Shown here: positions 56,331-61,937 of the stretch, in pieces
Position numbering within the stretch: position 1 is the stretch's first letter
How the letters are laid out: each line of letters opens with the position of its first letter
Assembly: GCA_000708525.1 (NCBI GenBank)
Contig: JMRP01000012.1
Location: 1 to 61,937, forward strand
Length of the DNA: 61,937 bases
Direction: 5' to 3'
Source of the DNA: Cyanobium sp. CACIAM 14
GTDB taxonomy: Bacteria > Cyanobacteriota > Cyanobacteriia > PCC-6307 > Cyanobiaceae
Notes under the pieces: generated by a model
The model's database searches: none
Seen by the model: only the letters and a program-made list of their open reading frames with translations
Told to the model about the DNA's origin: nothing
Made by a program: the position numbers and the translations under genes

Positions 56331-56402
56331 GCCCGATTAGCTCAGCGGTAGAGCGCCTGCCTTACAAGCAGGATGTCGCTGGTTCGAACCCGGCATCGGG
56401 CA
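56331..56402 (+). tRNA. tRNA-Val (anticodon UAC)
   Basis: A complete cloverleaf is visible by eye. The acceptor stem is GCCCGAT with ATCGGGC. The D arm contains GCTC and GAGC. The anticodon stem CCTGC/GCAGG holds loop CTTACAA with anticodon TAC. The T arm is GCTGG-TTCGAAC-CCGGC, and the discriminator base is A. CCA is not encoded. It is the insertion point of the element to its right. Confidence 0.97.
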
Positions 56403-56414
56403 TTCCTCAAGAAC

Positions 56415-56539
56415 CCAGTCCCAGACTGGAGAAAGCCAGTCCCAGCAAGGCCTCCCAGCGATGCCTCCACGGCTGCAGCTGGGGCAGGAATGACCCCGAA
56501 AGTCCCGGAAAATGCCAAAGTTTTACCCAGGATTTACCC
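56415..56539 (+). repeat. Phased short repeats between tRNA and integrase (recombinase arm-site candidates)
   Basis: CCAGTCCCAG occurs twice at 56415-56424 and 56436-56445, 21 bp apart (two helical turns). TTTACCC occurs twice at 56522-56528 and 56533-56539, 11 bp apart (one turn). Helically phased repeats next to a tRNA attachment site are typical of integrase or excisionase arm-type binding sites. Chance cannot be excluded. Confidence 0.45.
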
Positions 56540-56551
56540 GAGCTAGAGACG

Positions 56552-57739
56552 ATGGCGATGGCCCCATGGCTGCGGAGCCTCTCCCTGTCTTTCAAGGCGC
56601 ACCGGCTGGGCCGCACCGGCTGGCACGTCCAGCAGCACCGGGACAAGCTCCGCCTACTCAGCAGCGAGTTCCCGCCGCGGCCAGGGGAGCCCGATGGGCA
56701 GGGCACCCAGAAACGGGCCCTGACGCTGAAGACCCCGCCAGGGCCCACCCATGCCGCCGCGGCCCTGACGGAGTGCTGCGCCGTGTTCGATGCCGTCATG
56801 GCCGGCACCTGGACATGGCCCGACCCTGCTGCCACTCCCGCCGCCGACGACCCTGGTCACCTCCAGCCCCAGCACCTGGGGCGACTGATCGAGCAGCTAC
56901 GGACCCGGCTGGTGGGCGAGCAGATGCTGCAGGGGACCTGGGAGCGAACCTGGGCCCCATACCTGGCCCGGCTGGCCGCCACCGCGGTGGAGCGCCGATG
57001 GGCTGACGACGTTGAGTTCCTGGAGGCCTACCTGCGCCACTGGCAGCCCGGCAGCCGGAGCCGGCAGATGGCCCACGACCGGGCCAGACGCCTATGGAAG
57101 GAAGCGGGCTGGACGTGGCCCGAGGAGCTGGCCCAGCTGCGAGGGAACGGCAAGGCCGCGGCGGCCCCCGAGGGGGTGCAGGCCTTCACCGATCAGGAGA
57201 TCGAGCAGCTGCGCGAGGCGATCCAGCGGAGCCGCCTTACCCCTGCCGATTTGGTGGCGTGGGATGCGTTGACCTGCTTTGGCCTGAGGCCGAAGGAACT
57301 GCAGGCCCTAGATCTGCAGCGCCGTGATGGGGTGCTGGTGGCGGTGGTGAGCCGTAGCAAGCGGAGCAGCCGCGGGAGCAGCGGCGCCCGGATCGTCCCA
57401 GCTGTCCCCCCTGCCGGGTGGCCTGCGGACTGTCGCGGGCTGCTTGAACGATGGAAGCAGTCCGGCCTACCGCCGGCCCTGCTGGCGGCTCGATCTCCTG
57501 GGCAGGTGCTGACCCAGCAGCTGCGGCGCCTGCACCAGCCGGAGCAGCTGACGGCATACGGGCTGCGCCATGCCTTCGCCCTGCGGCTGGGCCTCGACCT
57601 GGGGCTGCACGTCAGGGAGGCCGCCGAGCTGATGGGCCACAGCCCGCAGGTTCATCTGGCGACCTATGGGAGGCGGCTGGACGGGCCGGGGCTGCAGGCA
57701 AAGGTCGCGGGGTTGGTGAAAGTTCGCGCCGCGGCCTGA
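56552..57739 (+). CDS. int: Tyrosine recombinase/integrase of the tRNA-Val element
   Basis: A 395-residue phage-type integrase. A DNA-binding N-terminus and core-binding domain (about 1-210) are followed by the catalytic domain: box I Arg in LTCFGLRPKELQAL, box II in LTAYGLRHAF, a GHS motif in AELMGHSPQV, and the nucleophile Tyr in LATYGRRL. In box II the usual His of HxxR is Tyr. It reads away from the tRNA, the normal orientation for tRNA-targeting integrases. I chose the ATG at 56552; no similarity exists upstream. Confidence 0.92.
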   Translation: MAMAPWLRSLSLSFKAHRLGRTGWHVQQHRDKLRLLSSEFPPRPGEPDGQGTQKRALTLKTPPGPTHAAAALTECCAVFDAVMAGTWTWPDPAATPAADDPGHLQPQHLGRLIEQLRTRLVGEQMLQGTWERTWAPYLARLAATAVERRWADDVEFLEAYLRHWQPGSRSRQMAHDRARRLWKEAGWTWPEELAQLRGNGKAAAAPEGVQAFTDQEIEQLREAIQRSRLTPADLVAWDALTCFGLRPKELQALDLQRRDGVLVAVVSRSKRSSRGSSGARIVPAVPPAGWPADCRGLLERWKQSGLPPALLAARSPGQVLTQQLRRLHQPEQLTAYGLRHAFALRLGLDLGLHVREAAELMGHSPQVHLATYGRRLDGPGLQAKVAGLVKVRAAA

Positions 57740-57886
57740 TTCACTTTCCCGGCGGTATCTGGGTCCTGACGACAAATGGAACGGATCGTGGAATCGAGTC
57801 CATTGGGAAACCCTTCACAGCAGCAGATCCGGGCCATAAGGTGATTTTGCGGGGAGACAAGGCCCCTACGTTCGTTCTTTTCACCA

Positions 57887-58114
57887 ATGGCTTTTTCCTT
57901 CACCACAGGTGAGGTGCAGGTCGCGCTGCGCGTTACCAAAAACACGCTCACGCGACTTCGCGCCGCCGAAGTATTGCGCCCCGGGGTGCACTTCACGGCC
58001 CACGGCGTCGGCCTGCGCCGCCCTGCTTTGCGGTGGGATCTTCCCGCTGTGGAAGAAACGCTGGCCAAACGAGGCAAGCAGATTCCCCGACCGAAACAGG
58101 AGGCCGCCCGCTGA
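57887..58114 (+). CDS. Excisionase-like small DNA-binding protein
   Basis: A 75-residue protein with a winged-helix/AlpA-like pattern: VTKNTLTRLRAAEVLRPGVHF, then PALRWDLPAVEETLAKR and a basic tail. Proteins of this size and pattern next to an integrase usually direct excision or control early genes. It begins 147 bp after int and its stop overlaps the next start (TGATG). The gap before it holds nothing I recognise. Confidence 0.7.
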   Translation: MAFSFTTGEVQVALRVTKNTLTRLRAAEVLRPGVHFTAHGVGLRRPALRWDLPAVEETLAKRGKQIPRPKQEAAR

Positions 58115-60769: not shown

Positions 60770-60806
60770 CCTCCCCTCCGGCTGTAAGTGGTCTTCCCCT
60801 GCGGGG

Positions 60807-61091
60807 TGCATCTTGTGCATCTTCTGCATCTACTCCTGCAGCGCAAGGGGTTTCGGGCGTGGATTGCTCTGGGGTGGGGTGCATCTTGTGCATCTTCCCT
60901 TTCAGGGACTGGGATCTGCGGGGTTGGTTGGGTGGTCGCCGTCGCCGCTTCACCTCTTCCAGCACCCTCCCTCCCACCGATAAACCCAGTCACCGCAAGG
61001 GAAGATGCACATGATGCAGCAAGCTGCACCCTTGCCCTCCCCTGAGATCGCAGTCGTACCAAGGGAAGATGCACATGATGCAGAAGATGCA
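60807..61091. repeat. Mirror-symmetric array of ten TGCATC iterons
   Basis: Ten copies of TGCATC lie in four blocks, always with a 9-bp period: three at 60807, 60816 and 60825; two at 60880 and 60889; then in reverse orientation two at 61004 and 61013; and three at 61068, 61077 and 61086. The gap between the outer and inner block is exactly 49 bp on both sides, and the centre is 109 bp. The first two blocks share a 22-bp exact repeat, the last two a 23-bp exact repeat. It follows the helicase gene, suggesting a replication origin; a terminase packaging site or an operator are alternatives. No convincing gene overlaps it. Confidence 0.85.
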
Positions 61092-61276
61092 CCCTCCCGG
61101 GAAAGACGGGTAGCAGCAGAGTCCCTGGCCCGCGCCTTCCACGGGACGGTCGTCACGGACACCGCTGGCGAGCTCCCCACCCGCTCCACCGCCGACCAGC
61201 GATTCCCCAGCTGCGGGCCCCGGACCCGTGGCTCCCGTCCCCCCACCAGCGCATCCCCTACGGCTCGGCCATCGAG

Positions 61277-61429
61277 ATGTTCGACATCGACCTGGACGGC
61301 CAGAACGGCTGCTGGCGCACCGGCTGGACATTCCTCCACTGGCTCGCTCCAGGCATCGCCCTGGTGGCCCTCGGTGTTCGCCGCCGCAGGGTGCTAGCGG
61401 ATTGCATCCGTCTCCCCGCTGCCCCTTGA
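61277..61429 (+). CDS. Possible small membrane protein (weak)
   Basis: A 50-codon frame beginning MFDIDLDGQNGCW, with a hydrophobic stretch (FLHWLAPGIALVALGV) followed by four Arg. Its composition looks more protein-like than the other frames here, and the frame stays open upstream, but there is no recognised family and no clear ribosome-binding site. The region 60770-61542 otherwise holds only the repeat array. Confidence 0.25.
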   Translation: MFDIDLDGQNGCWRTGWTFLHWLAPGIALVALGVRRRRVLADCIRLPAAP

Positions 61430-61542
61430 CCTGCCCCTCCAGCAAACCCTCCGCGTCATCCCCGTATGACCCCCACATGCTCTTCCACGGCCCACCAAGC
61501 CCAACTCCCTTCGCGTTGTCGTGACCGCCCAAGGCCGGCAGC

Positions 61543-61937
61543 ATGGGGAGCAGTCCAGATCCGATGCCGCCACCTGCCATGACGCCCCCTGAGGTGCCTG
61601 CTGTGGCGATACCTGGCGTAGGTGGTGGGAGGCCCATCGCCGCCGTCCGCGATCAGCGGGTCGCAGAGGTGGTGAAACTTCTGCTCGCTGGTAAGCGCCG
61701 GAGCGACGTGGTCGAGATGGCCCGTGAGCAGTGGGGCCTCTCCAGCCGCAGCGCCGATCGCCTACTGGCGGATGCAAGATCTCAGATACGGGCGGACTGG
61801 GATCTTCAGAGACCCGACATGCTGGCCCAGCTGCTCTCTCAACTCGCCGATCTCTACAAGCAGTCCAAGGACCGAGGGAATTACTGCGTCGCCCTCGGTG
61901 CCTTGAATTCTGCAGCCAAGTTGGCTGGGCTGATCTA
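61543..61937 (+). CDS. Terminase small subunit-like protein (3' truncated by window end)
   Basis: At least 131 residues, still open at the window edge. After a Pro-rich leader it has a helix-turn-helix region, VRDQRVAEVVKLLLAGKRRSDVVEMAREQWGLSSRSADRLLADA, then two helices (LAQLLSQLADLYKQSKDRGNY, ALGALNSAAKLAGL). The order of a DNA-binding fold with a WGLSSR-type turn and helical oligomerisation segments is that of phage TerS. The start is the ATG at 61543; one seven codons further is possible. In satellites a lone TerS redirects packaging of helper-phage capsids. Confidence 0.72.
   Translation, partial: MGSSPDPMPPPAMTPPEVPAVAIPGVGGGRPIAAVRDQRVAEVVKLLLAGKRRSDVVEMAREQWGLSSRSADRLLADARSQIRADWDLQRPDMLAQLLSQLADLYKQSKDRGNYCVALGALNSAAKLAGLI

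Follow-up and report, generated by a model that had tools for sequence, protein, structure and literature searches.

Tycheposons are reportedly tRNA-linked elements of picocyanobacteria that carry a tyrosine recombinase, some members being satellites and others bearing cargo. Their traits are a deep-branching tyrosine recombinase and insertion into a tRNA gene with duplication of its 3' end. Cyanophage satellites have been described chiefly in marine Prochlorococcus. In Gram-negative bacteria, phage-inducible chromosomal islands (PICIs) such as EcCICFT073 carry an integrase at the left end, a small helix-turn-helix (HTH)/AlpA-like gene, and a primase followed by a replication initiator, with two sets of iterons directly 3' of the initiator and sometimes terS, all in a single direction and without structural genes (PMC6092414). 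The same paper defines PICIs by an att site never occupied by a prophage, a size of about 12-15 kb, the lack of structural and lytic genes, two iteron sets 3' of rep with an AT-rich stretch between them, and induction, interference and packaging that depend on a phage. We analysed a stretch of 61,937 nucleotides (the window), which is the entire contig C12 (JMRP01000012.1) of the 71-contig, 3.21 Mb genome of the cyanobacterium Cyanobium sp. CACIAM 14. As judged from its genes and repeats, the last 5.6 kb of the window are likely to be the left part of an integrated PICI-like, tycheposon-like phage satellite, probably functional and working like a Gram-negative PICI. Because the window is the whole of C12, the element runs past the contig end.

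A first-pass annotation, made from the window sequence, had described here an integrated element at tRNA-Val with an integrase, an excisionase-like gene, a primase-helicase module and a TerS-like gene that share one direction. This arrangement was confirmed by ARAGORN, Pfam, PHROG and profile matches, and PrimPol, helicase and iterons provide the element with a replication module of its own. The order toward the right is tRNA-Val(tac), integrase, HTH gene, small open reading frame (ORF), PrimPol, helicase, iterons and TerS-like gene, with all element genes of C12 on the + strand. From integrase to TerS it follows the PICI organization of the Gram-negative type, that is, integrase, regulator and replication module in a single direction. 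The arm repeats of the integrase and the iteron cluster are additions to the first-pass annotation. The features are as follows.

56331..56402, + strand: tRNA-Val(tac), the integration target (ARAGORN).
56357-56414: tRNA-Val stretch repeated at the right end, with its copy at C62:263-321, minus strand (95% over 60 columns, 2-nt insertion in C62).
56522..56539, + strand: arm-type direct repeat of attL with 11-bp spacing, presumed integrase binding sites (exact pattern three times in the 3.2 Mb genome).
56552..57739, + strand: tyrosine recombinase (integrase), 395 aa (phrog_1, E 6.5e-9).
57887..58114, + strand: AlpA/Xis-like HTH protein of 75 aa, probably serving as excisionase or activator (PF12728, E 0.041; homologues in relatives).
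58114..58383, + strand: small ORF, 89 aa, with a J-domain-like HPD end (gene call).
58380..59429, + strand: PrimPol (AEP-type) primase, 349 aa (profile match to 6zp9, E 5.2e-32).
59426..60769, + strand: RepA-like AAA_25 replicative helicase (447 aa), residues 363-423 resembling the winged helix of LexA (AAA_25, E 9.8e-15).
60791..61107, no strand assigned: putative replication origin with 9-bp-phased iterons, core TGCATC (densest repeat stretch of the window).
61543..61937, + strand: TerS-like packaging gene, near complete and cut by the contig end (ORF 61543-61935; phrog_34910, E 3.4e-15).

The TerS-like gene would connect the element with packaging. Its best family, phrog_34910, is annotated as 'unknown function' and includes gp36 of Prochlorococcus phage MED4-184, a protein of 107 aa whose gene stands directly upstream of the TerL gene gp37. 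The window protein was 31% identical to gp36 over 105 residues, its residues 26-130 aligning with 1-105 of the 107, and the reading frame was unbroken. Elsewhere in the same genome, a 57-residue stretch at C3:79405-79575 (L013:5406-5576), about 3.6 kb from tRNA-Ala(ggc), matched the C-terminal half of the window TerS with 54% identity (E 1e-17), and is perhaps a remnant of another satellite at that tRNA.

The primase gave no Pfam match. A profile built from five family members (A2) matched the PrimPol AEP domain 6zp9 with the E-value listed above, and the FxExD, TG..S.H and D...R..G positions were invariant across the five; on the profile match, we regard the assignment as PrimPol as firm. The helicase matched phrog_30286 (E 8e-74) in addition to AAA_25, and shared 34.5% identity with RepA of phage S-CBS3; LexA_DNA_bind scored 22.1 bits, below its cut-off of 23.7. 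Directly 3' of the helicase gene, iterons were detected in a forward arm (60807-60831 and 60880-60896) and an inverted arm (61002-61091), in agreement with the two iteron sets 3' of rep in PICI origins. Behind the helicase stop, the octamer TGCATCTT was counted in four forward and three inverted copies, and it was absent from the rest of the window. The 16-mer TGCATCTTNTGCATCT, with up to one mismatch, was found at six sites in the genome, three per direction, all behind the helicase; the reversed control gave none. An ORF at 61005-61397 that overlaps the iterons matched no family and was taken as spurious.

The position of such repeats was then compared among related elements of other genomes, which are described below. 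In 8 of 12 elements (expected 1.2), the densest repeat stretch lay no more than 450 bases from the helicase stop, or from that of the gene standing in for it, the others being those of G121, G072, G113 and G115; the P value of this count, which was designed after the pattern had been seen and includes the window from which the idea came, serves as a guide only. For G235, the 'helicase' was chosen by position and not by homology. Hexamers repeated at exactly 9 bases near the helicase stops numbered 98, where 11.9 would be expected on the basis of 186 control windows taken from these elements, and 86 of the 98 came from six elements (window, G198, G250, G032, L063 and G223), with at most four from each of the other six. 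The iteron cores differed, being TGCATC in the window, GGAATC in G198, GTGACA in G032 and GGACCA in G250. Between helicases, the core region was matched in 27 of 66 pairs at E <= 0.01, and the last 130 residues in 1 of 66. We infer that the iteron core and the C-terminus of the helicase co-vary; since the repeats of G032, G223 and L063 overlap the gene end, part of the C-terminal divergence may be the repeats themselves.

Two further observations concern the replication genes. The HPD end of the small ORF between HTH gene and PrimPol resembles a J-domain by eye, and a longer frame weakly matched phrog_9210 (E 0.001); its product could recruit a host chaperone to replication. In two elements of the closed genome G054 (L034 and L037), the helicase lies inside a giant protein of 1,500-1,640 residues and is followed by two successive TerS-like genes.

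The integrase ORF starts 149 bases behind tRNA-Val. It is distant from Pfam and PDB families, with a PF00589 match of E 0.0034, below the curated cut-off, beside that to phrog_1. Its homologues on contig C59 of the same genome and in G121 were 74% and 67% identical, and residues R246, K270, R339, H363 and Y372, which we take to be the catalytic positions of tyrosine recombinases, were invariant across the three family members. The HTH protein, for which the Pfam match is weak, was 44% identical over 64 residues to an HTH protein of a cyanophage (the record behind L056), and in relatives its homologues follow the integrase. Contig C59 (1-4575, minus strand; L011) carries a second element of the same family at tRNA-Arg(tct). 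Its HTH protein is 65% identical to that of the window, its PrimPol is fused to a different helicase part, VirE/SF3-like by eye, and its attR at tRNA-Arg was not found among the contigs of this genome examined.

At attL the tRNA-Val(tac) gene was left whole. A second tRNA-Val 3' end, which the first-pass annotation had proposed to look for toward the right, is present on contig C62 in the copy listed above, so that the element resembles tycheposons in tRNA insertion with 3'-end duplication. The arm repeat TTTACCCAGNNNTTACCC occurred in exactly three copies genome-wide, at this attL, at the C59 attL and at the C62 attR (reversed control, none). A nuclease encoded on C62 was 72-73% identical to nucleases of the tRNA-Val elements in G113 and G235, and the last C62 gene before the tRNA repeat matched the right-end gene of the G132 element (E 1e-9). 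From these matches, C62 is very probably the right end of the element. The pairing is strongly indicated and not proven, because the host flank of C62 is untied to the tRNA-Val locus of the relatives and no overlap bridges the gap; among the C12 end, C62 and 22 small contigs, no suffix-prefix overlap of 10 bases or more was detected. With C62, the element measures at least 15.5 kb (5.6 + 9.9) plus the C12-C62 gap, beside the 12-15 kb given for PICIs.

Structural genes were searched for throughout this genome, and no match was obtained to PF05065 (Phage_capsid) or to the DUF4055 portal profile; the TerL profile gave a weak match (E 4.1e-5) on another contig and scored MED4-184 TerL at 1.2e-39. 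None was present among the scanned genes of C12 and C62, tail and lysis genes having had no systematic search, and none was recognized by eye in the gene calls of contigs C50-C71, which had no profile scan. Of the two conditions by which the first-pass annotation would be refuted, lack of a second tRNA 3' end and a full set of structural and lysis genes downstream, neither was observed as far as these searches and contigs reach; structural genes may lie in the C12-C62 stretch, which is missing from the assembly. An ordinary complete prophage could have its structural genes in this gap, the size of which the assembly leaves undefined. We consider such a prophage extremely improbable, as the assembly that lacks PF05065 and DUF4055 matches is 96.6% complete, and as the elements of G121 and G235, whose left ends are laid out alike, close at 13.2 and 12.0 kb.

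Relatives were collected with an integrase profile of three members (A1). Of 400 family genomes, drawn from a larger group, 30 matched it at E <= 1e-20, some by broken copies. Nineteen tRNA-adjacent bacterial stretches were examined, corresponding to 18 because L064 and L077 are one contig, with L061 and L062 left out as copies of G235 and G132. The target was tRNA-Val(tac) in 8 and tRNA-Arg(tct) in 10. In eleven relatives the tRNA 3' part is directly repeated at the far end and closes the element, giving lengths of 5,409 to 37,832 bases, and the remaining stretches mostly stop at a contig border; L081 is a short stretch only, and in its genome (G348) a second tRNA-Val copy lies 5.7 kb away. 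G235 and G132 belong to the same genus as this genome, and their contigs contain stretches of Synechococcus sp. BO 8801 and CS-1332. In a tree of 21 integrases, at least five changes of tRNA target were required, three of them forced by well-supported branches; shuffled target labels reached equally few changes in 43-51 of 500 trials.

Packaging or capsid genes were detected in several of these elements. PHROG profiles identified TerS-like genes in G235 (phrog_57, 2.7e-13), G250 (phrog_57, 2.9e-7) and G113 (phrog_309, 4.3e-7), and a TerS candidate of G198 gave no convincing PHROG match. PF05065 scored above cut-off in 3 of the 18 genomes; in G121 and G115 the hit lies within the element, and in G032 at a distance of 3.4 kb from the second integrase. 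These three relatives carry a capsid gene. A broad TerL profile matched weakly in 15 of the 18 genomes (best 1.1e-5), none of the matches being within an element, and the DUF4055 portal profile matched in 10 of 21 genomes or records, never within an element.

The cargo differed between members. On C62 it comprises genes for a nuclease, a multicopper oxidase, a DUF411 protein, a chromate transporter and an EamA permease, and among relatives BREX is present in G048, a type IIG enzyme in G032 and Hma genes, HmaB being incomplete, in G072. The guess of defence cargo in the first-pass annotation therefore holds for the family and not for the visible part of this element, where nuclease and metal-handling genes are seen. 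The metal genes on C62, together with large-cargo elements of the same integrase family in which no packaging gene was found (those with BREX and Hma), are what might be expected of a tycheposon-type tRNA cargo island, which would excise, replicate and move by vesicles, generalised transduction or chance packaging, with the TerS-like gene as a relic. This explanation seems unlikely to us, however, since the window TerS is unbroken and aligns over almost the full length of the phage protein, genes for TerS or capsid are found again in relatives, and the iteron origin points to active replication.

The integrase is shared with temperate phages. Seven IMG/VR loci encode integrases 60-63% identical to that of the window, L054, L055, L056 and L059 being the same phage in the parts compared. 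The L056 record (62.6 kb) contains TerL, portal, capsid and tail tape-measure-type matches, and an attP, read from the sequence, in which the 3' part of tRNA-Val(tac) is flanked by arm repeats. In the L058 record (65.5 kb) the attP carries the 3' part of tRNA-Arg(tct); a portal match was obtained, and other structural genes are known from gene calls only. The integrase of one attP-bearing phage record groups with the bacterial element L081 (support 97/97), and TerS of the G113 element was 32% identical (E 6.9e-15) to the TerS beside TerL in a phage with the same integrase family. Matching integrase and attP indicate that satellites and phages have one kind of integrase and its target sites in common. 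The PICI label given by the first-pass annotation is accordingly retained for the layout and the TerS-like gene, and fails for the private att site, phage attP being found at the same tRNAs.

These phages also raise the question of a defective prophage, that is, a temperate siphophage of this integrase family after loss of its structural genes. Such an origin would account for the related integrases, the like HTH protein, the attP with the same tRNA 3' parts and the MED4-184-type TerS, and G115 keeps both capsid and minor tail genes. We nevertheless consider it highly unlikely: the PrimPol-helicase-iteron module and the lengths are repeated across many relatives whose sites are conserved, a pattern that a single event of decay would not produce, and the genome lacks PF05065 and DUF4055 matches and has a weak TerL-profile match only. 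A conjugative element was likewise rejected, as no hint of a relaxase was noticed, although no search aimed at one was made.

Several points weigh against the interpretation as a PICI-like satellite. A strict PICI label is opposed by the att site shared with temperate phages, the latter being known from attP and not seen integrated, and by the spacer between the iteron arms, which is 64% GC against 69% for the window and thus not the AT-rich stretch of PICIs. The identity of TerS rests on distant homology and gene order. Its single-sequence model (mean pLDDT 76.5) had no fold match at E <= 0.001 in PDB or viral libraries, the best viral match being E 1.7e-3 and two terminase-small-subunit names appearing at E 0.14 and 0.72. 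Exact-short-peptide scans, which are weak tests, found no relative in IMG/VR with TerS or helicase as single-protein queries, and no match to the window TerS in six IMG/VR phage records with the same integrase family. Among relatives, neither TerS nor capsid was seen among the genes scanned in G132, G072, G048, G062 and the C11 element of G032, and the G115 element has a minor tail gene besides its capsid gene. As to the right end, the 262-base flank of C62 showed no conservation in 42 congeneric genomes; an empty-site search with 700 bases around the C62 attR against the 42 matched only the tRNA-derived part, and is therefore neutral on the pairing. Structural genes are possible in the missing C12-C62 stretch, and shorter pieces may have dropped out of the contig set, the smallest member of which is 5.3 kb. 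Finally, no helper, circle or packaged DNA was seen; helper identity, induction, excision and packaging are what we infer.

Beyond the anatomy, the mechanism proposed for the satellite follows by analogy with PICIs (PMC6092414). A helper siphophage would enter or be induced, and would induce the element through the HTH protein. The latter would turn on excision, integrase and HTH protein recombining the two tRNA copies. The helicase, via its C-terminal winged helix, may open the iteron origin for priming by PrimPol, and TerS would steer the helper TerL so that the element is packaged into particles made by the helper.

A broader scheme for freshwater picocyanobacteria is offered tentatively, as one that may well not hold. 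Satellites and temperate siphophages would draw on one pool of integrases that switch between tRNA-Val(tac) and tRNA-Arg(tct), and would compete for the site; each satellite would have its own 6-bp core in 9-bp-phased iterons, together with a conserved helicase core and a divergent helicase C-terminus, as an incompatibility code, and TerS families or a capsid gene would be swapped to suit the helper. With shared integrase and att site, phage-like TerS and element-specific iteron cores, helper choice, site competition and origin incompatibility become testable, and bounded members are present in named strains that are in part culturable (Synechococcus sp. BO 8801 and CS-1332). BREX and restriction genes on the same vehicles tie the satellites to phage defence in lakes.

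Compared with the Gram-negative PICIs, this family differs in having PrimPol as primase, an att site in common with temperate phages, a spacer that is not AT-rich, and a size range of 5.4-37.8 kb. Capsid-forming PICIs (cfPICIs) carry a full set of capsid and packaging genes. Some relatives here likewise encode a capsid protein; in contrast, no TerL or DUF4055 portal match lies within the elements, and C12 and C62 are without a capsid set. The name cfPICI is used in PMC11389934. PICMIs, according to PMC10803314, are similar in being small marine satellites with their own origin and without capsid-remodelling genes, but are inserted next to fis in Vibrionaceae. Another integrase family of cyanobacteria (picocyanobacteria), described in PMC10187409 as distinct from tycheposon integrases, uses tRNA-Phe and tRNA-Cys, whereas the present one uses tRNA-Val and tRNA-Arg. 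The temperate cyanosiphophages behind L056 and L058 share the integrase type, the tRNA-Val or tRNA-Arg attP and, in L056, the HTH protein, but possess structural genes. No paper describing the present integrase-element family was recognized in the literature searched, most subscription journals being outside its coverage. We regard the element as a genuine phage satellite, of a kind that is known and in a variant that is new.

Other elements were noted in the course of the comparison. Near tRNA-Ala(ggc) in G113:C10 (L043/L044), a different integrase is accompanied by an HTH-like gene, a primase-helicase and a Nu1-like gene (Nu1 by eye), and from this gene content we take the locus to be a second satellite lineage at another tRNA. 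In G113:C15 (L101, 1026-15962), three tRNA-Val 3' copies follow in series with 2.1 kb between the last two, which looks like a short additional insertion next to the element. The 35.6-kb element of G072 (L099/L100) contains three copies of a 525-residue gene, probably a transposase, and one of them directly follows a match to HmaB that is limited to the first quarter of that family.

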